Virus record (IMG/VR): IMGVR_UViG_3300005095_000025
Location: 1-38,243 of that record
Direction: 5' to 3' (one strand)
From: a virus
Length of the DNA: 38,243 bases
The notes below the pieces were generated by a model that was not told the origin of the DNA, did not search any database, and was given only the letters and a program-made list of their open reading frames with translations. Of the stretch, positions 14,791 to 37,343 are shown piece by piece (the stretch's first letter is position 1; each line of letters starts with the position of its first letter). The translations under genes and the position numbers were made by a program.

Positions 14791-16252
14791 TATTTACCTC
14801 CCCTGTTGCTGAAGGCTCCTGACCTCTTGCAACGACTTCTTCATTATCAACCGTACTATCTTTGGTCTTCTCAGTACCTGAAGATGATGGGTCATCACCT
14901 AAACCAAGCGGGTCCTGAGTAACACCCTTATTACCATTTATTACCATATACATACCATAAACACCAGACTCTTCTTTTGCCGGTCTGCCATACATTTCAA
15001 AAGCTGCTTCATCATCTGTCATCCATTTCAAAGACACCGCCTCTATGAGCCTTTTCTGCTTCATCATTAAGTGATTTTCAACTTCTTGGTCACTACGCAA
15101 ACTCACAGGCTCGAACTTGAACTTAACGAAACTCTTAGAGCCATTAAGCCTTAGTATAACTGTAAATATCTTACTTAATGTTGTAGCAATGTGCTTTTGG
15201 TACATCTTAATAATCTTTGTATAAAGAACAATTTCCTCTTTTGAGGCACCTGAAGAGCCAATCGTTCTACCTAAAATTGTAGGCAAAGTTTTTAATGCAG
15301 CAGACACTTTTTGGTCTAATATCTCAATTATTGGTCTAAAATCAACATTAGATGCTGTACCATTAGTAGACTCTAACAAACTCACTTCAACATAATCAAG
15401 ATGAATAAGAGCGTCCTCAGGGTTAGCTTCTCTCAAAGCTGTATCAATCTCTGTAAATTTATCATTTACAAATTTTTGCAAAGCTACAGGGTCAATCCTT
15501 ACAGATGCCGGTGCAGCTTTCATTAATGTATCATATAAAACCTTAACATCAAACTTAGGTGTCCCGGCTCTCTTCATAAAACCTTGCAAATCCCTAATAA
15601 CAGATAATGAAAAAAAGATGACCTCTAAGACAGCCACTATAGGACTGTAAACATAGGGGTCATCAGGTTGAGGGATTAATGGTTCATAAAAGAAGGTTGG
15701 GTAGTCAAGAGCAATTTCCTTATCCTCACTTTCAACAAAAGGTGTAAAAATGTTTGGTTTTAATTGTTTAAAATAAATCCTCTTAGGGTCTATAATATGT
15801 AGGTTTATAGGGGTTCTGCTACCGTCTAATTCAAGTTCGGCACATACACCCCCACGAACCATAGCTGTTTTTACCATACCATTAATTATAGAATCTAAAG
15901 TATGTTGTCTATCCCAAGTTGATATATTATAATAATAGTTCCAGTTATTTATTAAAGTTATTAACTTTTTATAACCTTTCAAGTCTATCTCACCTTCAGG
16001 TGTATAGACAACCGGGTACCAAGAAGTATTAACATTAGCCATAAGAGCTTGAACAGCATTACTTACATCCGGGTCATACTGAGACAAAAGCCAAAGAGAA
16101 TCATCTATTGAGTTGTAGCGTAAGTCTTCTAAGGAGGTCATAAAGTAGGGTGTTGTGGTGGGAGATATCTTATTATCCGATACCTTAAATGTTGGTGGGA
16201 CTACCCTTTTTGACTTTGCTTTCAGTTTTTTAATAGCAAAAAAGTTATCCAT
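14780..16252 (-). CDS. Portal protein
   Basis: 490 residues, a standard portal length. The N-terminal half contains DDSLWLLSQYDPDVSNAVQALMANVN and later VIDPKRIYF-like and YSPIVAVLEVIFF elements of portal proteins. The IIEILDQKVSAALKTLPTILG region (about 320-340) corresponds to the crown/stem helices. The C-terminus (about 445-490) is a flexible Ser/Thr/Glu-rich tail. It lies between the large terminase and the protease-scaffold. Twelve copies would form the DNA entry ring. A possible promoter sits just before it. Confidence 0.88.
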   Translation of the reverse strand: MDNFFAIKKLKAKSKRVVPPTFKVSDNKISPTTTPYFMTSLEDLRYNSIDDSLWLLSQYDPDVSNAVQALMANVNTSWYPVVYTPEGEIDLKGYKKLITLINNWNYYYNISTWDRQHTLDSIINGMVKTAMVRGGVCAELELDGSRTPINLHIIDPKRIYFKQLKPNIFTPFVESEDKEIALDYPTFFYEPLIPQPDDPYVYSPIVAVLEVIFFSLSVIRDLQGFMKRAGTPKFDVKVLYDTLMKAAPASVRIDPVALQKFVNDKFTEIDTALREANPEDALIHLDYVEVSLLESTNGTASNVDFRPIIEILDQKVSAALKTLPTILGRTIGSSGASKEEIVLYTKIIKMYQKHIATTLSKIFTVILRLNGSKSFVKFKFEPVSLRSDQEVENHLMMKQKRLIEAVSLKWMTDDEAAFEMYGRPAKEESGVYGMYMVINGNKGVTQDPLGLGDDPSSSGTEKTKDSTVDNEEVVARGQEPSATGEVNNET

Positions 16253-16272
16253 TCAAACTCTCCTTCTACTTT

Positions 16273-16300
16273 ATGGTATAATAGTACAAATATTTGTCAA
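16273..16300 (-). promoter_or_regulatory. Possible promoter in front of the portal gene
   Basis: On the minus strand TTGACA (16300-16295) is followed after 16 bases by TACCAT (16278-16273). It lies in the only sizeable gap of the virion operon, between the terminase stop and the portal start. The -35 is perfect; the -10 matches four of six positions. Confidence 0.4.
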
Positions 16301-16315
16301 GTAAAAAATTATGTT

Positions 16316-18025
16316 TTATAAAGTTGTTTTACCTAAAGCAAAAGGAACAAAGTCAACTCCTTTGTGTGTAAAGGCGTCGCTATATTCGTCAATGCACTTT
16401 TGAGCTATCTTAGCATACATATAAGCAAAGCCATAGTGGTCATCACCGGACAATTTAGGGTAATAAAAAGTTCCTGTCTTTTTATTAACATCTTTAATAA
16501 AGTTGGTAAAATGCTGTATAAGAACTTGTTTATCAGGCAGACAAGCCTTTGTAATTGTTGTTCTCCCTGTTTTAAAATCTGACAACATATTGTCAATAGA
16601 TGCTGTTCTGTTATATTTATAACGCATCTCATCACCATTAAACATTGATTTGTCATATCTATCTGCAAGATAGACGTCAATAGAAGGTATAACCATCTTC
16701 TTTTTAATCTTCTCAACTGTTGCAGGATAAGGCTGAGAATCCATTGCCAAGCAGACAGAGTTATGTTTCCTTGCCAATTGAATTAAGCTGTCTATAATTG
16801 CTTCTTCATTATCAAGCGTAACCAAAGGTAACTCATAATTTTTAACAATTATATACTCTTTTTCTGTATAATCATAATAAAGTATAATTAAGTTACAAAT
16901 CTTACCAAAGTCTAACCCCATTACCGTATATGGAGGTTCGATGTCATAAAGGTTATTAAATCTAATGTCTTCATCTACGAGACGGTCAACACTACTTGCA
17001 AAAGGTAAACCTAAGATTTGATTGTATATATCTCTCATATCAAAATATCCACGCATACTTTGGACTATCATTCTTCCGGTTTTCAACCCTGTCGCTAACT
17101 GATTTAGTAAATAACCTGTTCCGGCTCCTTGCACTCTGTTCTCATTTTCCCACACCCACTCTCTTATAGGTGCTATAGAAGTAATCTTGTTAGAAGTCTC
17201 AGGTATTAGAAGTTCGTTAGAGGACTCAAAAGACCCACCACATCTTTTACATCCTATATAACATTTGTCTTCAAAGCTGAACAACATGTCATTGTACAAC
17301 TGGGGAAATTCAGGCTCGCCTTGCTCAAATATACCGTGTGGAAAGTTTATCAAATTATTTATATCCATAAAATTCCACTCGCCACAATGAGGACACTTAA
17401 CCTGATAATGCTTCTTATTAGTGTTTTTTATCATTTCAGGGATACCTTTCTTTGGTATTGTTGGTGTTCCAAAGAAACGCTCTATACGGTGTTTAGAGTG
17501 CTCTAATCTTGACCTGAACAATTGAACATTTTTAGGGTCTGAATGGTCCAACTCATCCACTAAAATTGCATCAGCCGGGATAGACAAAGCGTGACTTTCT
17601 GCCCCGGCTGTATATCTGACATATAAGAAACCCTCACCAAGCTGTTTTAAGTCAACAGAGTTAGTGTCTTTAAGCATACCTTTTAACTTTGGTGAGGTTT
17701 CGATTATAGGCGAAATTCTACTTTTAGAAAACCCCTTTGCCATCATAAAGTTAGGCTGAGTAAAGATAACAGTTAACCCTCTATTAGCAACCAACTCTAT
17801 TGCACTTCTGCAATGTAGCTCTGTCAAGCCTATTTGGCAACATTTCTGTATAACAACAGTTCGCTCTTTGTCATCTGCTATCCCTGTTTGAAATTCATGA
17901 CCCTTAAATGAGAAGGGTTTGTTGTCTAATGTAGTGTTTTTACAAATCCACTCAGAAGGTTTTAAGTTATTGTCTTGCAGGCTTGACAACTTTGCTGCAA
18001 AAGTTAATAGGTATTCATTACTCAT
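16316..18025 (-). CDS. Large terminase subunit, GpA type
   Basis: 569 residues. The ATPase has a deviant P-loop, K61-CCQIGLTE, with lysine at the front as in lambda gpA rather than the classic GKT. Walker B is ILVDELD (DE at 157-158). A zinc-type pair follows, C211/C214 and C259/C262. The nuclease half shows D372 (MGLDFG), D429 (AMDSQP) and D528/D529 (GDDHYGFAY), the acidic residues of an RNase H-like active site. It cuts and pumps DNA through the portal. It overlaps the upstream gene by four bases. Confidence 0.9.
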   Translation of the reverse strand: MSNEYLLTFAAKLSSLQDNNLKPSEWICKNTTLDNKPFSFKGHEFQTGIADDKERTVVIQKCCQIGLTELHCRSAIELVANRGLTVIFTQPNFMMAKGFSKSRISPIIETSPKLKGMLKDTNSVDLKQLGEGFLYVRYTAGAESHALSIPADAILVDELDHSDPKNVQLFRSRLEHSKHRIERFFGTPTIPKKGIPEMIKNTNKKHYQVKCPHCGEWNFMDINNLINFPHGIFEQGEPEFPQLYNDMLFSFEDKCYIGCKRCGGSFESSNELLIPETSNKITSIAPIREWVWENENRVQGAGTGYLLNQLATGLKTGRMIVQSMRGYFDMRDIYNQILGLPFASSVDRLVDEDIRFNNLYDIEPPYTVMGLDFGKICNLIILYYDYTEKEYIIVKNYELPLVTLDNEEAIIDSLIQLARKHNSVCLAMDSQPYPATVEKIKKKMVIPSIDVYLADRYDKSMFNGDEMRYKYNRTASIDNMLSDFKTGRTTITKACLPDKQVLIQHFTNFIKDVNKKTGTFYYPKLSGDDHYGFAYMYAKIAQKCIDEYSDAFTHKGVDFVPFALGKTTL

Positions 18026-19596: not shown

Positions 19597-20235
19597 ATGA
19601 CTTTACAAGGAAAAAATGAAAAAATTGATGCTAAAACTTTGGTAAAAACCTTCAAGGATGTAATCCTTGAGGGGAAGGAAAATTTTTTAATGAGTTGTAT
19701 TAGCTCATTAAAAGATTTGAACAAAAAAGAGTTGGCAGGATTTATTATGTCCTGCCGTTCAGAAGCTATTAAGATTGATAATAAGGCTTTCAGTAATCTA
19801 AACCGTTACTTAAAAGCTGGCTTTATCCTGAAAGGTTTGTCTGATACTTCACTTCAAACACTTTTTAAAAATAATCCCATTAAAAACCTTTTAGGTTTGA
19901 GTACGGTTTTAAAACCGTATTCAATCACAAAAAAAGGTGGGGAATACAGTTTTGAAAGCAACTTCAAAACCTATACTTTAAGCGGTATAAATACCACATT
20001 GCTTGAACTTGAAGAAAAGAAAAAAGAGGCAAGCAGGAAAAGAGAAGAGGCGAATAAGAAAAAAGCTGAAAAAGAAAAAAATCAACCTGAACAGAATAGT
20101 AATTTTGTTCAGGAGATGCAGATTTTAGACACATTGAAAGAGGCGGTAAAAGTTGCTATTCCAAACATTCAGGACAACAAATTGGAACAAATTGAGAAAT
20201 ACTTTTTAGATAGTTTGAAAAAACAAGCTGTCTAA
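19597..20235 (+). CDS. Hypothetical coiled-coil protein, first rightward gene
   Basis: 212 residues. The N-terminal 110 residues are helical with many Lys (LVKTFKDVILEGKENFLMSC). Residues about 130-165 form a highly charged coiled coil (LEEKKKEASRKREEANKKK). No helix-turn-helix or enzyme motif is clear. It is the only sizeable gene in the central control region, has its own strong promoter and structured leader, and is followed by a perfect palindrome. A DNA-binding, replication or regulatory role would fit the place but is not shown by the sequence. Confidence 0.75.
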   Translation: MTLQGKNEKIDAKTLVKTFKDVILEGKENFLMSCISSLKDLNKKELAGFIMSCRSEAIKIDNKAFSNLNRYLKAGFILKGLSDTSLQTLFKNNPIKNLLGLSTVLKPYSITKKGGEYSFESNFKTYTLSGINTTLLELEEKKKEASRKREEANKKKAEKEKNQPEQNSNFVQEMQILDTLKEAVKVAIPNIQDNKLEQIEKYFLDSLKKQAV

Positions 20236-20244
20236 AAACCTTTA

Positions 20245-20270
20245 TGGGATAAGGTTTAAACCTTATCCCA
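20245..20270 (+). terminator. Perfect palindromic hairpin after the 212-residue gene
   Basis: A fully palindromic 26-base element (arms TGGGATAAGGT and ACCTTATCCCA around TTAA) begins nine bases after the stop. It is followed by TTATTTC, a weak U tract. It probably acts as a terminator in both directions or as a 3' stabiliser. Confidence 0.6.
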
Positions 20271-20272
20271 TT

Positions 20273-20312
20273 ATTTCAAATTATAATATTTGCGAATATT
20301 ATAATTTGAAAT
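20273..20312 (+). repeat. 18 bp inverted repeat before the tiny genes
   Basis: ATTTCAAATTATAATATT (20273-20290) pairs perfectly with its inverse at 20295-20312 around the tetraloop TGCG. It starts two bases after the preceding palindrome and ends about ten bases before the ribosome binding site of the next small gene. Confidence 0.85.
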
Positions 20313-20331
20313 ACTTTTAGGAGGTAATAAA

Positions 20332-20484
20332 ATGAAAAAACTTTTAGTTAAACTTTATGTTGAAAATGGTAAATCTTTCAAGGTTTGGAGGTTATATCCT
20401 ACAAACCTTGCAAATAAAGAGATAGTTAAAGACTTAAAACAGTCTTTTAAAGCCGTTTTGTTACTTAAGCAAATAAATTTATAA
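20332..20484 (+). CDS. Small hypothetical protein, 50 residues
   Basis: An ATG at 20332 is preceded by TTAGGAGGTAATAAA, an excellent ribosome binding site, and opens a 50-residue frame (MKKLLVKLYVENGKSFKVWR ...). It is basic, with a beta-like start and an amphipathic C-terminal helix (KDLKQSFKAVLLLKQ). No family recognised. It is the first of three short genes packed between hairpins. Confidence 0.65.
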   Translation: MKKLLVKLYVENGKSFKVWRLYPTNLANKEIVKDLKQSFKAVLLLKQINL

Positions 20485-20496
20485 GAAGATTTTAAA

Positions 20497-20667
20497 ATGA
20501 AAATTTTATTTGTAGAAAATCAGGAGTACTTAAGACTGTTAAGTAATCCAGATAGCAAGGTTGTTGTTGAAACAGACAACAACAAAAAGAGAAGGGCTTT
20601 TTTAGTATTTAAAGGGAAAAAAATTTTTGAATTTTTTCCCAAACATACATGGGCGGTGGAATTATGA
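20497..20667 (+). CDS. Small hypothetical protein, 56 residues
   Basis: 56 residues, beginning MKILFVENQEYLRLL and ending KIFEFFPKHTWAVEL, with a basic middle (NNKKRRAF). The upstream ribosome binding site is weak (AAGAAGA), so translation may be coupled to the gene 13 bases before it. The stop overlaps the next start by four bases. Function unknown. Confidence 0.5.
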   Translation: MKILFVENQEYLRLLSNPDSKVVVETDNNKKRRAFLVFKGKKIFEFFPKHTWAVEL

Positions 20668-20750
20668 AAAAATTATTAAATGTTTTACTGGATTTTTTAC
20701 TAATCCAAACTATTTTTATTTTAGCTTGGATTTTTCTAATAATTTTCTAA
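20664..20750 (+). CDS. Tiny single-pass membrane peptide, 28 residues
   Basis: 28 residues, almost entirely hydrophobic after MKK: one membrane helix from about residue 8 to 28 containing LLIQTIFILAWIFLIIF. The start overlaps the previous stop (ATGA) and follows GGTGGA. Such peptides in phage early regions can modify the host membrane or other functions, but no role can be assigned. The short length makes it uncertain. Confidence 0.45.
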   Translation: MKKLLNVLLDFLLIQTIFILAWIFLIIF

Positions 20751-20760
20751 ATATGTCAAT

Positions 20761-20791
20761 TTTTCAAACATTCGTTCTGAGTGTTTGAAAA
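20761..20791 (+). repeat. Inverted repeat TTTTCAAACA
   Basis: TTTTCAAACA (20761-20770) is repeated inverted as TGTTTGAAAA (20782-20791) around an 11-base loop. It starts eleven bases after the tiny membrane-peptide gene and could end its transcript. The TTTGAAA core also recurs at 18951 and 19022. Confidence 0.75.
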
Positions 20792-20797
20792 TTAAAC

Positions 20798-20842
20798 AAA
20801 CCGTCAACCTGACAACTTGAAAGTTTGAAAGGTTGACGGTTT
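20798..20842 (+). repeat. 13 bp inverted repeat AAACCGTCAACCT
   Basis: AAACCGTCAACCT (20798-20810) pairs perfectly with AGGTTGACGGTTT (20830-20842). The 19-base interval contains a smaller inverted repeat (AACTT and AAGTT), so a two-tier hairpin is possible. Confidence 0.8.
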
Positions 20843-20872
20843 ACAAAAAGCTTGAAGCTCATATTTGAGTTT

Positions 20873-20990
20873 TAAGCAACTTTTTTATTCTCAGGTATAC
20901 AAAACCATTACTTTTTAAAAAAAGTTGCTTAGAATTGAAATATGGAATTCTCAGAGGGTATTTTATACCTGAGGAGAAACCACATTTCAA
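20873..20990 (+). ncRNA. Candidate structured RNA with two interacting hairpins
   Basis: TAAGCAACTTTTTT (20873-20886) pairs with its inverse at 20918-20931. TTGAAATATGG (20935-20945) pairs with CCACATTTCAA (20980-20990), one G-U allowed. The first loop contains CTCAGGTATA (20890-20899), a perfect complement of TATACCTGAG (20964-20973) inside the second hairpin. This allows a kissing or pseudoknot contact that competes with the local pairing of GGTAT with ATACC. That is seen by base complementarity only; transcription is not shown. Confidence 0.4.
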
Positions 20991-21049
20991 ATTTTTAGTA
21001 GGAAATTCGGTTTTTTGAGGCGAGAGAACTGTGCTTCAAGGCGATTTTT

Positions 21050-21074
21050 TCAGCTCGTAACGGTTACGAGCTGA
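21050..21074. promoter_or_regulatory. TCGTAAC palindrome, copy 2
   Basis: Arms TCAGCTCGTAAC (21050-21061) and GTTACGAGCTGA (21063-21074) are perfectly inverted around one G. The same core occurs at 19552-19576 and 21909-21924. The odd palindrome and repetition suggest a dimeric DNA-binding protein. Confidence 0.65.
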
Positions 21075-21088
21075 CAAACATAAAACTT

Positions 21089-21293
21089 CATATATACCTG
21101 TAAGGTATATATGGCTGGCTCTTTGATAAGTATTTACTCAAATTCGCAAACTTCAAACCCAATAACCTGAAAATTTCTATATATATCCTGTAGGATATAT
21201 ATAGCAGGAAAATTGGCTCTGAGACCACGCATTACTGGAAATGTTTAATTCACGAATAAGGGTTTTAGCATATATATACTTCGTATATATATG
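21089..21293. repeat. Three similar AT-rich hairpins
   Basis: CATATATACCT with AGGTATATATG (21089-21099 and 21103-21113, loop GTA). CTATATATATCCT with AGGATATATATAG (21177-21189 and 21192-21204, loop GT). CATATATATAC with GTATATATATG (21269-21279 and 21283-21293, loop TTC). All three have perfect 11-13 bp stems of similar sequence about 65-80 bases apart. Weaker nested pairings flank the third (AATTCAC with GTGAATT; CACGCATT with AATGCGTG). Confidence 0.8.
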
Positions 21294-21356
21294 GAACTTT
21301 TAAAAAGTGAATTTAGGCGTAAGTGAATGCGTGTTTAAAGAGGGTTTTTGGGAAGA

Positions 21357-21746
21357 GGTAACGAGGGTAAGAGCTTTTGTTTGCGGTATTTAGGCTTGAA
21401 TTTGAGAAGGGAGTTACCGAAAGTTACCTGAGTGTTACCTTTGTATAAATATATATAAAATAAGGACTTATAAATATATTTAATATAAAAGGTAACATAG
21501 TAACAAAAAAAGGTGCGTCAAGTCGTAAAAAATTTTTTCAAAGAAAGGGGGGTGTCTCTGCACAGAATGTTACCTTTTTGTGTGCAAGTCTAAAAGTACC
21601 CTCACCACAGCACCTAAGCACCCTAAAAAAAGGTAACATCTGTATGTTACCCTCTTTGAAATTCGCATATTCGCAAACTACTTTTATTATAAATTATAAG
21701 AATTGCCAAAAAGTCAAAATTTGGAGTAACAATTTTGCCTGTTACC
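21357..21746. repeat. Cluster of nine GGTAAC/GTTACC hexamers (iteron-like)
   Basis: GGTAAC at 21357, 21491 and 21632, and GTTACC at 21413, 21423, 21434, 21569, 21646 and 21741. GTAAC without the leading G is also at 21500 and 21726. Two copies form a hairpin, GGTAACAT with ATGTTACC (21632-21651). The hexamer would be expected well under once in 390 bp of this composition. Spacing is irregular, unlike a strict iteron array. Confidence 0.7.
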
Positions 21747-21837
21747 TATGATAAATTTTATTTGAAAAGTTTTACCACAAATATTTAAATTCCGGTTTTT
21801 GAAATTTAAATTTTGATTTTTGAAAGTCAAAATTAGA

Positions 21838-21874
21838 TTTTATATTTTCAATTTTGAAAATTGAAAATATAAAA
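21838..21874. repeat. 18 bp inverted repeat around one base
   Basis: TTTTATATTTTCAATTTT (21838-21855) and its exact inverse (21857-21874) are separated by a single G. Low-complexity AT sequence partly explains it, but the length is unusual. A smaller pair, AATTTTGA with TCAAAATT, lies just upstream (about 21809-21834). Confidence 0.75.
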
Positions 21875-21908
21875 ATTTAGTTGAGTAGTATAAATCCATT
21901 TTTATTAA

Positions 21909-21938
21909 CTCGTAACGTTACGAGCTGCTATATATAAT
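21909..21938 (+). promoter_or_regulatory. TCGTAAC palindrome, copy 3, with a -10 element
   Basis: CTCGTAACGTTACGAG (21909-21924) is a perfect 16-base palindrome. A TATAAT follows at 21933-21938 and the next gene starts at 21958. The palindrome covers the place where a -35 would lie, and no TTGACA-like sequence is present, so the site looks like an operator or activator site controlling the early operon. Confidence 0.6.
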
Positions 21939-21957
21939 TTAACTAAAGGAGGTCAAA

Positions 21958-22326
21958 GTGAAAATATTTAACTTAAAAGGGGTTTTATTGTTTGAAGATG
22001 CGTCCACAAGCTTGAAAGAAACTGTAGAAAATGCAGTTTCTCAGAGTAATACTTTGCGTAGTGCAGACTTGCGTGGTGCTGATTTGCATAATGCAGATTT
22101 GCATGGTGCTAATCTGTATAATGCAGATTTAGATTACTCTAATTTGCCTTTATGTTGTAGTGGTTTAAACATAAAGATAGATAAAAAATTAGCAATACAG
22201 TTTTTGGTGCACGCATTGCAACAGGATTGTGACAACCCAGAATTTCAGAAAATTAGAGAATTAAAGACTGTGCAAAAATTTTGTTCACAGTTTCATCGAA
22301 AAGATGTGAGTTTATGGTTTAACTAG
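21958..22326 (+). CDS. Pentapeptide-repeat protein
   Basis: 122 residues with a GTG start after an AAAGGAGGT site. Residues 36-65 are six pentapeptide repeats (ADLRG ADLHN ADLHG ANLYN ADLDY SNLPL), which form a right-handed square beta helix. The N-terminal strand MKIFNLKGVLLFE and helix (SLKETVENAV) match the usual capping region of small phage pentapeptide proteins. The C-terminal 50 residues are helical with no known match. Some larger repeat proteins mimic DNA and act on gyrase; this one is too short to assume that. First gene of the early block. Confidence 0.85.
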   Translation: MKIFNLKGVLLFEDASTSLKETVENAVSQSNTLRSADLRGADLHNADLHGANLYNADLDYSNLPLCCSGLNIKIDKKLAIQFLVHALQQDCDNPEFQKIRELKTVQKFCSQFHRKDVSLWFN

Positions 22327-25378: not shown

Positions 25379-26458
25379 ATGAAAAAATTAGTAAGTGAAA
25401 ATCCAAGAATTTATCTTGAATGGGAGTTGAAAGAAACTGAAAAAGGGCATGTATTCTCAGGCTCTGGCTCAGTCTATAATGAGGCAGGGACTGATATTGA
25501 AAGGGGAGGGCAATGCGTAGACGCTATTGCTGAGATGCTACCCCATAATGATTTCGTACAAGAGTTTCACTACATGTGGGACTTATATCATTTAAACGAT
25601 ATGCACGCAGGCACGCCAGATCAGGAGAAATATATCAGGGAAAACATAAAACCAAAATATGAAGCCTTAAAGGAAGAGGCAATAAAAGTAGAAGAAGATA
25701 GGCAAAAAGCGAAAGAGAACTTACAAACTCTTCTACAGCGTGAATTAGGTTTACCTGGAAGACGATTTGAGGTTTGGTTAGATTATTTAACTAAATTAGA
25801 TTTAGGTAAAGTTAAAAGGCTGTTATTCTCAAGAGAACATCCTGACAAACCAGCAATTTCAGCTCTTGGTTTTGTGATATCTAAAAGTACAGTTTTAAAA
25901 TTGCAGCAACCAGAGGTGGAAGTTCTTGGCTGGTACCAATTTTGTGTATACGAATTGGTTAAAGCTCATCTTATATATGATTACAAATACACATCCAAAG
26001 GTAAATTATTCTCAAAAGATGAGTTGTATTGCTACAAGAACAACAAAGACCCATACAGATATGGTACTAGGTGGTTGTTCAGGCCTATTCCTGAGGACGA
26101 TTTAAAAATAATCAAATCTTGGACAGCGGAGCCTATGGTCCAACCGCAAAAAACTGAGTTTGAAAAAATGGTTGATAGCTATACTTTCAGTTGCAAATTT
26201 GTAAAGTCTGATGACTTCGCAAATATTTACGAAGTATCCTTTAATGACCAAACTTTCAAGTGGCAACAAGGTTTTGGTATCAAAGGAGAGCCTGATAAGT
26301 ATCATGTTATGGAGTGTCTTATTCGTGATGCTCAAAGTGCGGATATTGACACCCTGATTGAGCTTGGCTACTCTTACAGCGAAGCTAAAATAATAGCTAA
26401 AGAATGCCAGAAAGTTGCTGTTAAATTAGACATCTTGGGGGTGGACTATGAACTTTAA
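25379..26458 (+). CDS. Phage protein with a WDLYHLNDMHAGTP motif and a C-terminal repeat domain
   Basis: 359 residues. The N-terminal domain has GGQCVDAIAEML (43-54) and WDLYHLNDMHAGTPDQE (67-83), a motif I know from many phage hypothetical proteins of unknown function (W..WHLNDM.AG). A helical linker with coiled coil follows (about 92-125), then a middle region with a YGTRWLF strand. Residues about 264-340 are homologous to the N-terminal half of the next gene's product. It overlaps that gene by 11 bases. No catalytic residues are established. Confidence 0.75.
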   Translation: MKKLVSENPRIYLEWELKETEKGHVFSGSGSVYNEAGTDIERGGQCVDAIAEMLPHNDFVQEFHYMWDLYHLNDMHAGTPDQEKYIRENIKPKYEALKEEAIKVEEDRQKAKENLQTLLQRELGLPGRRFEVWLDYLTKLDLGKVKRLLFSREHPDKPAISALGFVISKSTVLKLQQPEVEVLGWYQFCVYELVKAHLIYDYKYTSKGKLFSKDELYCYKNNKDPYRYGTRWLFRPIPEDDLKIIKSWTAEPMVQPQKTEFEKMVDSYTFSCKFVKSDDFANIYEVSFNDQTFKWQQGFGIKGEPDKYHVMECLIRDAQSADIDTLIELGYSYSEAKIIAKECQKVAVKLDILGVDYEL

Positions 26459-26960
26459 ACAAAGGGTAGATAAGCATAATTTTAAAATTGCATTCATATA
26501 TTCCACAGACCTAGCCAAGATTTATCAGGTGTCTTTAGCAGACAAAACTTTCAAGTGGGCTCAAGCCTTATATGAAACACAACTGCCTGATAAATACCAA
26601 ATTATGCGAGACATTATTAATTATGCTTTTACTGGTACAGCTGATTATCTCATGAATGAAATTGGATATAGTTACTATGAAGCTCATGGGGGTATAATGG
26701 ACAAGTTAAGGCTTTTAGGTTTTGTTTCAAGTTGTATGTATTGTAATAACAACACAGAAGAGCCTCATTTCGCTTGCGATTTATGTGGTAGAGGTATGTG
26801 TGATGAATGCTATGATATGGATACAGAGCATTTCAGGCACTATCATCAAGCTGACACCTTTTCTGACGAAAGAGTTGTTAAGGCTGTTGGTCACGAGCCT
26901 GATTATCTTTGTGACACTTGTTACGACAAAATATTTTTAGGAGGAAAAAATGAATTTTGA
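26448..26960 (+). CDS. Zinc-binding phage protein with a duplicated N-terminal domain
   Basis: 170 residues. Residues 9-90 match the C-terminal domain of the upstream protein: F.(I/C).F.(Y/V)S.D.A.IY.VS..D.TFKW, then PDKY..M. Residues 96-158 hold a cysteine cluster: C96-x2-C99, C110-x2-C113, C118-x2-C121, H128, H131, H133, C155-x2-C158, probably two zinc sites. The CDLCGRGMCDECYD block recurs in many phage hypothetical proteins. Protein or nucleic-acid binding is likely but unproven. Confidence 0.75.
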   Translation: MNFKQRVDKHNFKIAFIYSTDLAKIYQVSLADKTFKWAQALYETQLPDKYQIMRDIINYAFTGTADYLMNEIGYSYYEAHGGIMDKLRLLGFVSSCMYCNNNTEEPHFACDLCGRGMCDECYDMDTEHFRHYHQADTFSDERVVKAVGHEPDYLCDTCYDKIFLGGKNEF

Positions 26961-30294: not shown

Positions 30295-31110
30295 ATGGCA
30301 TATTTTGGAAGTGATTACGAAGCATTAGCACATCATTGGGTGTACAATTTTGATATATCCCATTGTTATGGGTATAGAATGTATTCTGAGAATTACGAGA
30401 TTTATTCATATGGTTATCACCATATGATTGCAAAGTATTTTCCAAAGGAGGATTGCTTCATCGTAGATGTTAGTGGCGGTTCTAAAACCACTACAAAGCA
30501 AACAAGAGCTGTGTTAGGTGCAATACCTTATCATGAGCTTATTTTTCAAACCAATCAGAAGCCCGATTCTGAACCAAAGGTTCTGATTGAGGGTTGGTTT
30601 AACTCTATTGAAAGATTATTGCCTAAGTACAAGCGAGCAAGGTCGAGAAAAGATGAGTATGCAGAGCAGATAAATACTTATATTTCTTACATTAAGAAGT
30701 ATGTTGAACTTTTCAAAGTGAAGTATAAATTCTCTAAATTGCAAAAGGTAATTTTGGAATCTTCATTTGAAGTCTCTGAAGCTGCCCTTGAAGATGCAAG
30801 AAAGAAAGATGAGGCTAAAGAGAAGCGTCAATATAGAAAGCAGATAAAAGAATGGTGTGAGGGTTTACGACCATCTTTACCAAGTGCTATTAATGAAGTC
30901 TATCTCAGGGTCTCTTCTAATGGTGAATATATAGAATCTTCAAAGTCTGCTGCATTGCCGATGGAGACAGCGAGAGAGCTCTATAATGACCTTTTGAACA
31001 ATTGTTTAAAGGATTCTTATGGTGGGTTTAGAACTGTGCTTAACAAGGACACTTTGATTATTGGGTGTCACAAAGTTAAAATGAAAGAAATTGAGAGGGT
31101 AATGAAATGA
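30295..31110 (+). CDS. Conserved phage protein of unknown function (IYSYG family)
   Basis: 271 residues from the ATG that follows AAGGAGG; a longer frame upstream is not needed. The N-terminal block, ALAHHW (10-15), EIYSYG-HHMIAKYF (35-49) and a GGSKTTTKQTR segment (61-71), matches a widespread phage protein plan known to me from many phages as hypothetical (A..W...IYSYG.H..IA...S.TT..H). Residues about 180-210 are a basic coiled coil. The role is unknown. Confidence 0.75.
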   Translation: MAYFGSDYEALAHHWVYNFDISHCYGYRMYSENYEIYSYGYHHMIAKYFPKEDCFIVDVSGGSKTTTKQTRAVLGAIPYHELIFQTNQKPDSEPKVLIEGWFNSIERLLPKYKRARSRKDEYAEQINTYISYIKKYVELFKVKYKFSKLQKVILESSFEVSEAALEDARKKDEAKEKRQYRKQIKEWCEGLRPSLPSAINEVYLRVSSNGEYIESSKSAALPMETARELYNDLLNNCLKDSYGGFRTVLNKDTLIIGCHKVKMKEIERVMK

Positions 31111-31307
31111 TATCTAAAGTTTTTCATATGCCTACATTTTCTAATGACTTAATTGACTCTATAAGGAGTGAATTAAGTCCTATGTTTAAGAATAGCACAT
31201 CTGAAATTTATTTTTTGGATGATATTTATGAATTAGTTAATACAGATAAGGACGCATCTGTTATGTATGAGTTAAGAAAAGAAGGGGTATCTTATGTCGA
31301 ACTTTAG
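31107..31307 (+). CDS. Small paralogous early protein, member B
   Basis: 66 residues. It shares S.DLI.SIR.ELSP, a strand with IYFL-D-DIYELV, and a C-terminal VSYVEL with members C, D and E. The start overlaps the previous stop by four bases. Its last codons overlap the next gene. The compact strand-helix-strand-helix plan suggests a small globular fold. Function unknown. Confidence 0.75.
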   Translation: MISKVFHMPTFSNDLIDSIRSELSPMFKNSTSEIYFLDDIYELVNTDKDASVMYELRKEGVSYVEL

Positions 31308-31503: not shown

Positions 31504-31833
31504 ATGTTTTATATTCTTTTCAAAAAAGACAATAAATATTCACAATTAATGTTACAGGTAGGGAGTGAGGATAAGGGAAATGCAGATATATTTTTTGATG
31601 AATTGAAAAAGGAGCTATCCTCACTGTTTAAGGTAGAGTATAACATACACAACATTATAACTAAGTTGATAAGGAGTTTCCCAGATGTAACATTGACAGA
31701 GAATTTTGATTGTAGAGACGCTTTTGGTAATATGTACTTCTTTTTGGCTTATGCTATTTTTGTTGTTGAGGAATTTGATGGTAAGTTATTTTTACATGTT
31801 TTACAAAGTAGTGAAATAGTATTAAAAGATTGA
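31504..31833 (+). CDS. Hypothetical protein, 109 residues
   Basis: 109 residues, mixed alpha/beta with a hydrophobic segment about residues 78-90 (YFFLAYAIFVVEE) that may be buried rather than membrane-bound. GAGGAGGG precedes the ATG. The stop overlaps a GAGGTG that serves the next gene. No family recognised. Confidence 0.65.
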   Translation: MFYILFKKDNKYSQLMLQVGSEDKGNADIFFDELKKELSSLFKVEYNIHNIITKLIRSFPDVTLTENFDCRDAFGNMYFFLAYAIFVVEEFDGKLFLHVLQSSEIVLKD

Positions 31834-31841
31834 GGTGTAAA

Positions 31842-32042
31842 ATGGCATTGTTTTATAAAGTGGTTTATATAAATGAGTTATCTCTTGAAGAAGAGAAATT
31901 CATTAAGAAAAACGCAGAACCTGTGTTTTTTGGTGAAGGTGTAGGCTTGTATAGTATTGAAAATTTATTAAATTACTCTGAGTTACCTAAAAAATATTTA
32001 AAGAAACTTTTAGATAAGGATTGCACATATTTGGAGGTGTAA
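31842..32042 (+). CDS. Small paralogous early protein, member C
   Basis: 66 residues from the ATG after GAGGTGTAAA; an upstream TTG is rejected because it lacks its own ribosome binding site. LSLEEEKFIKKNAEP, then GLYSIENLLNYSELPKKYLKKLL and a terminal TYLEV are clearly related to member E (LSNDAIARIKANVE, LYSIKDLLYYAD, YEILEV). The final GAG GTG codons are the Shine-Dalgarno of the next gene. Confidence 0.78.
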   Translation: MALFYKVVYINELSLEEEKFIKKNAEPVFFGEGVGLYSIENLLNYSELPKKYLKKLLDKDCTYLEV

Positions 32043-32043
32043 A

Positions 32044-33516
32044 ATGACAATTAAAATCAATATCAAACCTGAAGCAATAATGAGTAAAGTGGATAGACTT
32101 TTTAACAACACACCAGAAGCGTTTCTGATTGAAATGTTTCAAAATTTCAGACGGGCAGGTGCATCACAAGTGTTAGTTAGCTTGTCTGACGAATACCTTA
32201 CGATGCAAGGCAACGGCGAAAAATTGAAGTCATTTGAGGACCTGTTCACTCTGGGGCAGTCTAACTGGGATAAAGATGTACAACATGAAGACCCAGCAGG
32301 TATGGGGTTCTTCTCTGTGGTAATGTTTCCCGAGGTAGAAGTACATCAGGATAACAAGTGTATCAAAGTAACAAAAGAGCAACTTCTCACTTATGGAGCT
32401 GAATTACAAGTATCTGAAAGTGAGATTGAGGATTTAACTTTTAAATTTAAAAATCTAGGTATTGTTACTGAAGAAGATATTAAGGAAGTTGCAGAAGAAT
32501 ATTATGGTATAGACATTTATTTAAATAAGGATTTAATTAAGAAATACTACATTGGTAAGCCTATCCATGAAACAGAGGAATATAAGGTTTATTATAGAGA
32601 TGCTATGTGGGGTACTGATATTTTAAATTATTTCGGTGTCAATATAGCAGTGTCTGAAAGTGAAAAATCTTTAGGTGTAATATTTACAGCTGTTGCAAAA
32701 GAAGGCTGCAAGTTAAAGCTTGTCTTGCCTGCAAGGAATGAAATTATACAAAATGAAGCCTACGAGAATTTAGTTAAGCAAATTGATATTGCAGTAGCTA
32801 AGTTTGCTGATATGTGTAAGTTACTTTTACCTTATAAAATTTATATGAGGTTGAAGGAGCTATACCCACCTCTTAAACTTACAGTTGATAACCCTGATGA
32901 GCCTGTATTTAGCAAGTTAGATGAGTATTTGTGTCCTAACTTTGAATATTTACTTTCTCAGCAGTTAGGTTACAGGTTTGTAAGTGAGGCTTATGAGCCT
33001 TATTACACAAATGTTTTGCAGATTAAAGATGTGAAAGCCAAAGGGGTCCCTCTAATAGAAATAGACCAAAACAAAACTTTTAGAGAATCAATTAAAATAA
33101 CTTGTGGTGATTTTGAATTAGGTGAAGTTGATTGGTTATTAGCTGATGAAGTGTATGCTGATGGTATGTGCACAGCATATCTTTGGAAGACGCTTGAATT
33201 TGACAGAACTGATATTGAGTTCTTTTTTGAGTATCTATTAGGAGATTTTGATTTTGATGTTTATGATTGGGAATGTTCTTATGATGAAGCAGTTGAATAT
33301 ATAAAACATAACATCAAGAAGCAGATTTTTGATGAGGTAGAGGCTAATATTGAGGCATATGATAATAGATTTAAGGAGTTTAGAGGTTATATCATCTCTG
33401 ATTATGATGGTGTGTATATTAAAGGTAGTTTTTTTCCTTTTGACAAGGACGCTGAGGAAATTCCGGATGAATTAACAAAAACTCTTTTGAGAATGTATAA
33501 AGGAGAGAGATTATGA
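32044..33516 (+). CDS. GHKL-type ATPase
   Basis: 490 residues. An Hsp90/MutL-like ATP-binding domain occupies the first 110: N-box E30-MFQ-N34 followed by RRAGA (36-40), a degenerate DxGxG region (MQGNG, 54-58) where the usual Asp is Gln, then LFTLGQS (67-73), and the lid motif DPAGMGFFSVV (83-93), equal to the GxxGxGF of this superfamily. A beta-rich middle with a LLADEVYADG stretch and an acidic C-terminus (FFEYLLGDFDFDVYDWECSYDE, in parts) follow. The catalytic Glu and Asn are present, the nucleotide-sensing Asp is lost, so it may bind ATP without normal turnover. No partner domain such as a kinase or nuclease is seen. Confidence 0.8.
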   Translation: MTIKINIKPEAIMSKVDRLFNNTPEAFLIEMFQNFRRAGASQVLVSLSDEYLTMQGNGEKLKSFEDLFTLGQSNWDKDVQHEDPAGMGFFSVVMFPEVEVHQDNKCIKVTKEQLLTYGAELQVSESEIEDLTFKFKNLGIVTEEDIKEVAEEYYGIDIYLNKDLIKKYYIGKPIHETEEYKVYYRDAMWGTDILNYFGVNIAVSESEKSLGVIFTAVAKEGCKLKLVLPARNEIIQNEAYENLVKQIDIAVAKFADMCKLLLPYKIYMRLKELYPPLKLTVDNPDEPVFSKLDEYLCPNFEYLLSQQLGYRFVSEAYEPYYTNVLQIKDVKAKGVPLIEIDQNKTFRESIKITCGDFELGEVDWLLADEVYADGMCTAYLWKTLEFDRTDIEFFFEYLLGDFDFDVYDWECSYDEAVEYIKHNIKKQIFDEVEANIEAYDNRFKEFRGYIISDYDGVYIKGSFFPFDKDAEEIPDELTKTLLRMYKGERL

Positions 33517-33851
33517 ATAAAGTGCATAAATATAAAACTTTAAAATCTCATAATGTTATTACTAGTGTACGTGATAGTTATTTTGGAGTAGTTTTTGATG
33601 GGGTTAAATTTGATTATCTCACATTTACAGATGTTAAATTTGAAAAGTGTGTTTTTAAAGATTGCAAATTTGAAGAGTGTACTTTTAAGAATTGCTCTTT
33701 TGATGGTTCAATATTTATTGATTGTAGGTTTAATAGGTGTTTGTCATATGCACCTACATCACCTAAAAGGTGTACAGGTGTAGAGATAAATGGTCACGAA
33801 GTTGACTTGGACGAGACAGATTTTATTTATCTTTTGGGGGTAATAAATTGA
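33513..33851 (+). CDS. Second pentapeptide-repeat protein, Cys/Phe type
   Basis: 112 residues. From about 28 to 76 a five-residue periodicity with central Phe and frequent Cys is clear: FDG VKFDY LTFTD VKFEK CVFKD CKFEE CTFKN CSFDG SIFID CRFNR C. This folds as a short right-handed beta helix. The C-terminal third is not repetitive. It overlaps the GHKL gene by four bases. Cysteines at the same position every five residues would stack in line in the helix. Distinct from the Asp/Leu-type protein at 21958. Confidence 0.82.
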   Translation: MNKVHKYKTLKSHNVITSVRDSYFGVVFDGVKFDYLTFTDVKFEKCVFKDCKFEECTFKNCSFDGSIFIDCRFNRCLSYAPTSPKRCTGVEINGHEVDLDETDFIYLLGVIN

Positions 33852-34045
33852 TTCTAAAAATTGAAACTACACCTAGGCTTAGTAGAGAAATGGTTAATAG
33901 GATTAAGGCAGAAGTTGAGCCCCATTATAAACCAAGTCTTTACCGCTTGATTAATATAAAGGATTTAACTGTTACTTTTAGTGATAAGCGTAGTGTATTG
34001 AGGATGATACGAAATGATATATGTTTTGTGGAGGTTTTAGGATGA
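33848..34045 (+). CDS. Small paralogous early protein, member D
   Basis: 65 residues with a TTG start that overlaps the previous stop (TTGA) behind GGGGGTAATAAA. LSREMVNRIKAEVEPHYKPSLYRLINIKDL matches members C and E (I.RIKA.VE, LY.I.DL), and it ends FVEVLG. The function is unknown. The same junction sequence recurs at 37974-37989. Confidence 0.78.
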   Translation: MILKIETTPRLSREMVNRIKAEVEPHYKPSLYRLINIKDLTVTFSDKRSVLRMIRNDICFVEVLG

Positions 34046-35568: not shown

Positions 35569-36204
35569 ATGTTAAATAGACATGAATGTAAAGTAATGAA
35601 AGTATCACACGATGGAGAGTACTGGGAGGACAGAATTGTCACTGAGATTTTTGATGATGGCACCTGCTTAGCAGTAGACAAAGCTTGCTTTGGACCAGAT
35701 GAATTTGAAGAGTTCAAAGCAGATAAGTCATCATTCGACACTATACATTGGGATTTTTGTCGAGAAACATCTAAGCAACAAAAGGAAGGAAAAAGAATGT
35801 CAGACTATACCAACCTTAGCAAAAAAGTAGGAGGATACATGGAAATTTTAAAAGAACTTAACAAAACCAACAAAAAAATTAGAGACGAAGCTATCAAATC
35901 TATGGAAAAATGGGCGGAAGAAACAAAAACAGCAGAAGACATATATTCAAATAGTTCCATGCAAATAAGACGCTGGAACACAATCTGCAACCTCCATATG
36001 CAGGCAGGGTCATCTAAACTAATAGACCGCAACAGCAGAGAAGAATTGAGTATGATAAGTCTTAAGATAGCTGAAATTAGAGAGTTCATACTTAAGCATA
36101 AGGACAGAATGATAGCTGAAATTGAAAATACAGCTAAAAAGAACCTATCAGAAAGCAACGAAGCTCTTTTAAAAATAATCAAGGGGGTAAGAAATGTTAG
36201 ATAG
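35569..36204 (+). CDS. Two-module protein, first of a duplicated pair
   Basis: 211 residues. Module 1 (1-66) matches the start of the next gene's product: ML.R..CKVM..S.DG..W, (R)IV.EIF.D..CLAVD...F...E.EEF....SF.T.....CRE. Module 2 (77-211) is a charged, mostly helical domain starting MSDYTNLSKKVGGYMEIL and not found elsewhere here. An internal ATG at 35797, after AAGGAAGGA, could start module 2 alone as a 135-residue product. Module 2 is also richer in A and C than its surroundings, so it may have been acquired separately. Confidence 0.7.
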   Translation: MLNRHECKVMKVSHDGEYWEDRIVTEIFDDGTCLAVDKACFGPDEFEEFKADKSSFDTIHWDFCRETSKQQKEGKRMSDYTNLSKKVGGYMEILKELNKTNKKIRDEAIKSMEKWAEETKTAEDIYSNSSMQIRRWNTICNLHMQAGSSKLIDRNSREELSMISLKIAEIREFILKHKDRMIAEIENTAKKNLSESNEALLKIIKGVRNVR

Positions 36205-36613
36205 AAGTAAATGCAAGGTAATGGAAATTTCAAATGATGGTAAAAATTGGGACAATAAAAGAATTGTAATTGAAATTTTTAAAGACAATAGTTGTTTAGC
36301 TGTTGACGATATCTATTTTAGTGCTGAAGAAATTGAAGAATTTAGACAATGTAATGGTTCTTTTGGCACAACTAAATATCATCACTGTCGTGAAATCAAA
36401 GAACCCGAAAAGCGATTGATGACACAAAAAGAATATATAACTTGGGTGGTAACAACAGGCTATAAAAATTGGGTGCTTAGATATGAGAATTGCACTCACC
36501 TTTTTGCACCTTTACCTTGGTCTCAAATTTCTGACCTAAAATATTTAAGAAAAGCACCTATAGACGAAAAAGGCAATATAGGTGAATGGACTAAATTCGA
36601 GGTGGAAGAATGA
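36194..36613 (+). CDS. Second of the duplicated pair, with a different C-terminus
   Basis: 139 residues. The first 67 residues are homologous to module 1 of the upstream protein, including the CKVM, IEIF and CLAVD blocks and the CRE end. The C-terminal half (YITWVVTTGYKNWVLRYENC, then LPWSQISDLKYLRKAP) is unrelated to the other one. It ends KFEVEE, coded by sequence that includes the next ribosome binding site. It overlaps the upstream gene by 11 bases. Confidence 0.7.
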   Translation: MLDRSKCKVMEISNDGKNWDNKRIVIEIFKDNSCLAVDDIYFSAEEIEEFRQCNGSFGTTKYHHCREIKEPEKRLMTQKEYITWVVTTGYKNWVLRYENCTHLFAPLPWSQISDLKYLRKAPIDEKGNIGEWTKFEVEE

Positions 36614-37125
36614 AAAATTTTATTGAGAAAAAACATATGAAAGGTTTAGATTATATTCAAAAGTTTAGAAAGTATCTTGATTATTTGGAAGAGCATCTTC
36701 TCAATGTAATGAAAGCCTTTAATGAGCTTTCAGAAAAATGTAATAAAATGTGGTGGGTAAAAGATGATGTAGCTTGGCATACACTTAGGCAACAAGTGTG
36801 TTATCACGATATCTCTAAATTTTCTCCAGAAGAGTTTATAGAATACCAAAGAGCATTTTTCCCTGTTGATGAGAAAGAGAATTTAAAAAATGCTTGGGAA
36901 CACCATAAAAATAACAATACTCATCATCACGAAAGCCTTAAAGATGATTTAGATGTTGTCCATATGGTTATTGATTGGATAGCTATGGGTTACAAGTTTG
37001 GGGATACAGCTAAGGAGTATTATGAGAATAATAAAGACAGAATTAAATTAAATGATAGGCAAAAAAAGATAATGTATGAAATATTTAATAATATGTATGT
37101 TAAAAAATTCGAGGTGGAAGAATGA
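36610..37125 (+). CDS. DUF5662-like protein
   Basis: 171 residues. The plan matches DUF5662 as I know it: an N-terminal helix with HL..V, then CYHDISKFSPEEFIEYQ (64-80) with H66 and D67, AWEHHKNNNTHHHE (95-108) and a later DWIAMGYKFGDTAKEYYENN (122-141). H66, D67, H98, H99 and H105-H107 look like metal ligands of an HD-like fold. This is a family of unknown function, common in phages. It overlaps its neighbours by four bases on each side and ends in the same KFEVEE junction as the previous gene. Confidence 0.75.
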   Translation: MKNFIEKKHMKGLDYIQKFRKYLDYLEEHLLNVMKAFNELSEKCNKMWWVKDDVAWHTLRQQVCYHDISKFSPEEFIEYQRAFFPVDEKENLKNAWEHHKNNNTHHHESLKDDLDVVHMVIDWIAMGYKFGDTAKEYYENNKDRIKLNDRQKKIMYEIFNNMYVKKFEVEE

Positions 37126-37343
37126 GATTATATAAACATTTTGAGGTTGAACCTTTATCTAATGATGCTATTGCTCGTATCAAAGCTAATGTAGAGATTG
37201 CAGTAACTTTAAATGATTTTACTACTCAATTATACAGTATTAAAGACTTGCTTTATTACGCTGATAGCATGGAGTTAGATAAGACAGATATTGAAAAGTT
37301 GCAACATTCCCAAAGCCTTGGCTATGAGATTTTAGAGGTGTAA
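37122..37343 (+). CDS. Small paralogous early protein, member E
   Basis: 73 residues. HFEVEPLSNDAIARIKANVE, LYSIKDLLYYADSME and the terminal YEILEV match member C best, with further similarity to B and D. Its last codons (GAG GTG) and stop form GAGGTGTAAAATG with the next start. The function is unknown. Confidence 0.78.
   Translation: MRLYKHFEVEPLSNDAIARIKANVEIAVTLNDFTTQLYSIKDLLYYADSMELDKTDIEKLQHSQSLGYEILEV

Follow-up and report, generated by a model that had tools for sequence, protein, structure and literature searches.

Hsp90 proteins, which carry a conserved Arg in their second domain, and the phage RIIA proteins are the closest described counterparts of the protein reported here. In the excerpts of the literature drawn on, RIIA is described as a phage protein of the GHKL type whose C-terminus varies (PMC7824862), and divergent RIIA/RIIB proteins are reported to counteract RexAB across phages (PMC11879866) and to be dispensable in hosts without Rex (PMC11879866, PMC8594841). 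Degenerate G1 boxes are described in the VanS kinases, in which the G1 Asp is replaced by Asn, the second Gly is absent and ATP binding is weak (PMC10017428), and in human TOP2B adenine is held through an Asn in the G1 box (PMC9592559). By sequence, the protein reported here belongs near an unnamed GHKL-S5 family of plasmids, bacterial genomes and large phages, and carries an unusual nucleotide pocket.

The gene and its surroundings

The window analysed here is the whole of a 38,243-base virus record (IMGVR_UViG_3300005095_000025; 33.3% G+C), in which no tRNA genes were found. Its minus strand holds head and tail-type genes from 1 to 18.9 kb, and its plus strand many short, closely packed ORFs from 19.6 to 38 kb. 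The terminase, portal and major head proteins have counterparts among the PHROGs families, and the best named matches of the terminase and capsid include the ~80 kb phages Seuss, JWF and KB12-38, at less than 30% identity. The gene of interest, recognised from the ORF list and a profile match, sits in the plus-strand operon (32044-33516, plus strand) and encodes a GHKL/Hsp90-like protein of 490 aa, uninterrupted from its ATG start (hereafter the window protein); the strand and operon layout suggest early expression. A Shine-Dalgarno-like GGAGGTG (32033-32039, plus strand), read directly from the sequence, ends five bases 5' of the ATG and falls inside the 3' end of the ORF before it (31830-32042). 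Codon usage resembles that of other phage genes, making recent transfer of the gene unlikely. Its stop shares a 4-base overlap with the start of the next gene, which encodes a 112 aa pentapeptide-repeat protein (33513-33851, plus strand; Pfam PF13576, E 1.7e-9); a functional link between the two genes is unproven.

Some further features of the window were recorded. Same-strand ORFs of 65-73 aa (31107-31304, 31830-32039, 33848-34042 and 37122-37340) are apparently diverged paralogues, which share LS...I..IK... and LY.I.DL and end near Y(V/L)E(L/V), a weak similarity seen by alignment and missed by blastp. Paralogous neighbours are found at 25379-26458 / 26448-26960 and 35569-36204 / 36194-36613 (43.6% over 78 aa, 39.2% over 102 aa). 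A stretch of ~1.7 kb between plus-strand genes (20235-21958) has no ORF of at least 60 aa, and is possibly non-coding or occupied by small genes.

Fold and family relationships

The window protein is a GHKL (Bergerat-fold) protein with a second domain of Hsp90/MutL type. It comprises a GHKL domain at about residues 2-150, the end being approximate (32047-32493; model, fold matches and profile), an S5/transducer domain resembling the Hsp90 middle domain at about residues 151-285 (32494-32898; alignment, fold match and profile), which includes LVLPAR (226-231) with the invariant Arg231, and a divergent C-terminal part at residues 286-490 (32899-33513), which has a low-confidence model and matches neither the profile nor Pfam (all on the plus strand). 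The AF2 model (63-row alignment) has a mean pLDDT of 72.8, with values of about 90 and above over most of residues 31-60 and 91-160, and low values in the lid loop (under 50 at residues 73-75) and in much of residues 330-490. It shows the Bergerat fold, and the protein has the N box Glu and Asn and the lid glycines. The preliminary description, which had proposed an Hsp90/MutL/MORC-type ATPase, had made this assignment contingent on the fold and on a motif spacing supported by relatives; the spacing is borne out by the alignment and by a profile built without the window protein, so the GHKL assignment stands.

Among solved structures, the closest match of the model is to the Hsp90/TRAP1/HtpG group, with TRAP1 (4z1i; Z 16.6, rmsd 3.5, 243 residues, 13% identity) aligning to model residues 6-261 and thus to a fold of Hsp90 N plus middle domains. 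Matches to MORC2 (9cdj; Z 15.1, rmsd 4.0, 252 residues) and GyrB (3zkd; Z 14.8, rmsd 3.8, 246 residues) follow, rows with Z no more than 1 apart being counted as tied. The window protein resembles Hsp90 in its second-domain Arg, but differs from it in the absent G1 Asp and in the low identity; no match to the Hsp90 C-terminal dimerisation domain was seen, the C-terminal part of the model being of low confidence. A family member with intact motifs (L065) gives a model of pLDDT 90.0, which matches HSP90B (Z 18.9, rmsd 3.5, 258 residues) and Hsc82 (Z 18.9, rmsd 5.3, 333 residues). The S5 motif GhXhhpXXRhl of MORC proteins, given in the excerpt of PMC2292703, is lacking: the residue 8 before Arg231 is Lys223 rather than Gly (KLKLVLPAR). 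In the BFVD set of viral models, the named matches are mostly RIIA proteins and topoisomerases, the best including RIIA of Caulobacter phage Seuss. These fold matches, and the account of RIIA as a widespread GHKL family in the excerpt of PMC7824862, run against the earlier supposition that stand-alone GHKL proteins are rare in phage early genes.

Searches with the single protein fail because it is too diverged, giving only a sub-threshold Huntingtin HEAT match in Pfam, nothing meaningful in PHROGs, no match among PDB sequences, and a sub-threshold sacsin-type ATP-binding-like match in NCBIfam (residues 26-95, E 3.8e-4). By tblastn it matches 1 of 50,697 phage records and 92 of 72,556 plasmid records, and the plasmid matches listed, from proteobacterial and cyanobacterial plasmids, are mostly annotated 'ATP-binding protein'. 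A profile of 104 relatives with the window protein left out scores it at 157.6 bits (E 4.9e-45, residues 2-277), while 0 of 1000 shuffled copies were reported. The plasmid family, exemplified by WP_054735452.1 of Sphingopyxis macrogoltabida, shares with the window protein the GHKL plus S5 layout and the motifs RRAGA, LG.S.W, EDPAGMG and LVLPAR (tblastn E 3e-18). Unlike the window protein, however, the plasmid members have an intact D[DN]GxG and in most cases GT. The majority of them are 540-590 aa long, the C-terminal part of the window protein being shorter and diverged.

Additional relatives were found by contig scans. The scan of viral contigs with a 15-row alignment gave 10 distinct distant loci on contigs of 81-208 kb, of which 9 were found again with a 3-row alignment, and the scan of genome contigs gave 302 relatives from 453 candidates, the best 80 of the 302 being used; these 80 include Acidobacteria, Planctomycetes, sphingomonads, Rhodobacterales and cyanobacteria. 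Relatives from both scans were fetched by the patterns ..E.LQN.R.., EDPAGMG.. and LVLPAR.., so these stretches owe part of their conservation to the way in which the relatives were selected; none of the patterns covered the G1 box or the GT motif. Pfam HATPase_c_3 is detected in 21 of 22 members scanned (the window protein is the exception) and HATPase_c in 16 of 22. Against the PDB, the profile of these 22 members matches E. coli MutL at 3e-8, indicating similarity of the GHKL core over ~52 positions only, and Hsp90 proteins at 7.6e-5 and weaker.

Identity of the window protein to its relatives is about 17-26%, and in the tree it forms one of five long branches (2.6 changes per site), grouped with four viral and seven Planctomycetes rows with weak support (83/77; drawn open). 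Since its adenine pocket is not intact, it is regarded as a diverged relative of the plasmid/phage GHKL-S5 family rather than a typical member.

Some entries in the collection call for comment. MT836346.1 (L002; 5388-7082), filed as 'Bacteriophage sp.' from human faeces, encodes a GHKL protein that the tree places among sequences from sphingomonad plasmids and genomes; the record is probably not a phage but a contig of a bacterial plasmid. One large viral contig (L024) carries a second, weakly similar GHKL-like ORF (15802-16885; E 8.7e-6), cut by the end of the locus. The family gene of QDFQ01000020.1 (L087), labelled Arthrobacter sp. TPD3018, matches the same query range as the Sphingomonas ones, and contamination or mislabelling is possible.

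The nucleotide pocket

The segment from Glu30 to Asn34 (32131-32145, plus strand) retains both residues, which in GHKL structures are the catalytic Glu and the Mg-binding Asn, and the ATP-lid region at residues 71-91 (GQSNW...EDPAGMGFFS; 32254-32316, plus strand) is likewise kept in the alignment. By contrast, the G1 box at residues 56-60 (32209-32223, plus strand) reads GNGEK versus D[DN]GxG in the relatives, by alignment and profile, and the family GT motif is missing from residues 128-133 (32425-32442, plus strand; alignment). The preliminary description had placed E30, N34, LGQS (70-73) and GMGFF (86-90) correctly, and all are family motifs. It was also right in calling the pocket degenerate, but wrong in assigning the lost Asp to Gln55: the Asp position is Gly56, and column 55 is variable in the family. 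The degeneration is wider than had been claimed, as the second Gly of DxGxG is Lys60 and the GT motif is also gone.

The extent of the departure is clear from an alignment of 109 homologous ORFs, of which three have gaps at the G1 box and 106 have letters. Among relatives with letters, the G1 Asp and the second Gly are each present in 106/106, so that the box reads D-[DN]-G-x-G without exception in the 106. N34, G86 and G88 are likewise present in 106/106 and E30 in 105/106, and the GT motif has G in 105/105 and T in 96/105. The window protein thus lacks the DxGxG of GHKL proteins (Gly56, Lys60) and the intact adenine pocket that, although not a published criterion, is universal in these relatives. 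The HMMER posterior line is maximal across the G1 stretch, and residues 51-58 contain no acidic residue in any register, so the Asp is missing however the stretch is aligned. A frameshift artefact was considered and rejected, since neither of the alternative frames in this region restores a DxGxG motif. Asp to Gly could come from one altered base in the codon; Lys60 would take at least two.

Conserved columns were defined as those with one residue in at least 95% of relatives (n = 34, after removal of the weak second match in L024). The window protein retains 24 of the 34, including E30, N34, R36, R37, G58, W75, G86, G88 and R231, and loses 10, including D56, G60 and G128 (the G of the GT motif). 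In GHKL structures, the Asp, the second Gly and GT lie on the adenine side of the pocket. The loss of Asp and GT and the gain of Lys in the G1 turn, with Glu30, Asn34, the lid glycines and Arg231 kept, thus mean that the adenine side is lost and the Mg/phosphate/catalytic side kept. In two plasmid relatives 12 and 11 of these columns have changed, yet the D and G of the G1 box remain, so the loss of the pocket is not simply a by-product of divergence.

The VanS kinases are similar in having a degenerate G1 box with the Asp replaced and the second Gly absent, but differ in being histidine kinases and in having Asn, not Gly, at the Asp position, in the excerpt of PMC10017428. As an accepted member with a degenerate box, VanS indicates that GNGEK lowers the case for an ATPase and not that for the GHKL fold, and the Asn of TOP2B is a counter-example by which loss of the Asp alone does not exclude ATP binding. 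A search for literature on pseudo-ATPase GHKL proteins found nothing relevant, within the searches made. The viral contig scans (with the protein alone and with 2-, 15- and 3-row alignments) turned up no closer relative that shares this pocket, so the altered pocket may be either under selection or that of a single drifting copy.

Neighbourhoods and possible function

Gene neighbours were counted at 102 family loci (69 groups after dereplication), and the neighbour clusters carry names that we assigned by recognising sequences, with annotated plasmids as a guide. Neighbours include DUF3768-like genes (36/102 loci, 19 groups), ParB-like genes (27/102, 7 groups), ArdC-like antirestriction genes (24/102, 6 groups) and DUF736-like genes (12/102, 9 groups), and DUF3768 and antirestriction genes are annotated beside several plasmid members. 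This placement of the relatives among mobile-element accessory genes suits a role in conflict or establishment. A PAPS-reductase-like gene, found at 25/102 loci (18 groups) just downstream at a median distance of 136 bases, follows or adjoins the GHKL gene (e.g. 7659-8594 in L070), which suggests an uncharacterised two-gene unit on sphingomonad plasmids. A conserved operon shared by the window and its relatives was rejected, as at E 1e-4 the neighbours of the relatives are matched by no other window ORF except a single antisense one within the GHKL gene. PADLOC assigned no defence family to the window protein, and among 22 family members its matches were only weak (2, 2 and 1 members).

A terminase scan for kin phages found none, while a capsid scan gave 332 relatives among 420 candidates, 80 of the 332 being used. 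Of the virus records behind these 80, 12 were searched for the family gene and 0 of 12 had it; they are mostly fragments and include no positive control. The domain PF13589 was found in 0/12 of these records and in 14/14 control genomes, yet it misses the window protein itself. The two nearest kin records share with the window only four head genes, plus a tape-measure-like match in one. As far as these 12 mostly partial records tell, the gene is thus not fixed in this loose kin group.

The best explanation, put forward tentatively, is a non-canonical or pseudo-ATPase clamp or scaffold of the Hsp90 type, serving as an RIIA-like early accessory counter-defence factor. The protein would be a two-domain nucleotide switch of the Hsp90 type with a variable C-terminal part, in which the GHKL domain would feed the S5 domain and the S5 Arg would reach the phosphates. 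With its adenine reader gone, ATP binding would be expected to be weak or nil, by analogy with the milder degeneration in VanS, and such a poor binder may serve as a clamp or scaffold of a non-canonical or pseudo-ATPase kind. Its action may resemble that of RIIA, as an early, accessory host-interaction protein with a partner, of host or phage origin, that it clamps or remodels, and RIIA is by analogy its best functional counterpart: the RIIA proteins of T4 and Seuss share with it a GHKL domain and a variable C-terminus, in the terms of the excerpt of PMC7824862, and are structural matches. That the window protein is itself a true RIIA ortholog is, however, very improbable, and was rejected despite structural matches to many RIIA proteins and the rIIA-rIIB pair of the distant kin phage Seuss. 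A profile comparison with T4 rIIA alone (hhalign) gives a probability of 7%, the family HMM leaves T4 rIIA undetected and scores Seuss rIIA below zero bits, the lid motif differs, and Seuss rIIB finds nothing by tblastn at E 1 in the window, which is probably a fragment. With RIIA membership failing by sequence and rIIB missing, the claim is limited to a protein that may work like RIIA.

Other explanations make different use of the same observations. The pocket residues that are lost all belong to the base side, which would also fit an active phosphohydrolase or sensor with altered specificity for a non-adenine nucleotide or nucleotide-derived signal, Lys60 lying in a remodelled base pocket; this is unlikely, as the Lys may equally just block the pocket and none of the relatives found has the same change. 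It is more improbable still that an Hsp90-like switch was re-tooled as a counter-defence device, with its adenine reader removed and its phosphate-handling, catalytic and arginine-finger parts retained, to sense or consume in place of ATP some nucleotide other than an adenine one, or a nucleotide signal of immunity or stress. The existence of members with intact pockets on plasmids and in large viral contigs allows for a dominant-negative protein, which would use its GHKL/S5 face to pair with an intact relative or a host GHKL protein (a plasmid member, MutL, HtpG or gyrase) and poison it. Some pentapeptide-repeat proteins act on gyrase, and the overlapping pentapeptide-repeat gene would be in keeping with such a target, but these repeats are common in phages, identity to the relatives is low, and a family member in the host is conjectural; poisoning of this kind is distinctly unlikely. 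The proposal of the preliminary description, that the protein could poison or mimic a host GHKL complex, is speculative. Doubtful to a similar degree is a decaying accessory gene, acquired horizontally and drifting towards loss: the long branch and the 10 lost columns are as expected of decay, but the 490-codon ORF is intact, with a ribosome-binding site and phage-like codon usage, the catalytic residues and lid are retained, and the two plasmid relatives that have lost 12 and 11 columns keep their G1 D and G.

The window protein is real, well placed near its family and unusual in its pocket, of which no second example was found. It connects phages with an unstudied GHKL-S5 family of mobile elements, and is a naturally occurring variant whose Bergerat pocket has its adenine and phosphate halves uncoupled. 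Should the variant prove functional, it would put two ideas to the test: that an Hsp90-like clamp can operate with no ATP or with a different nucleotide, and that RIIA-like counter-defence extends beyond RIIA itself.
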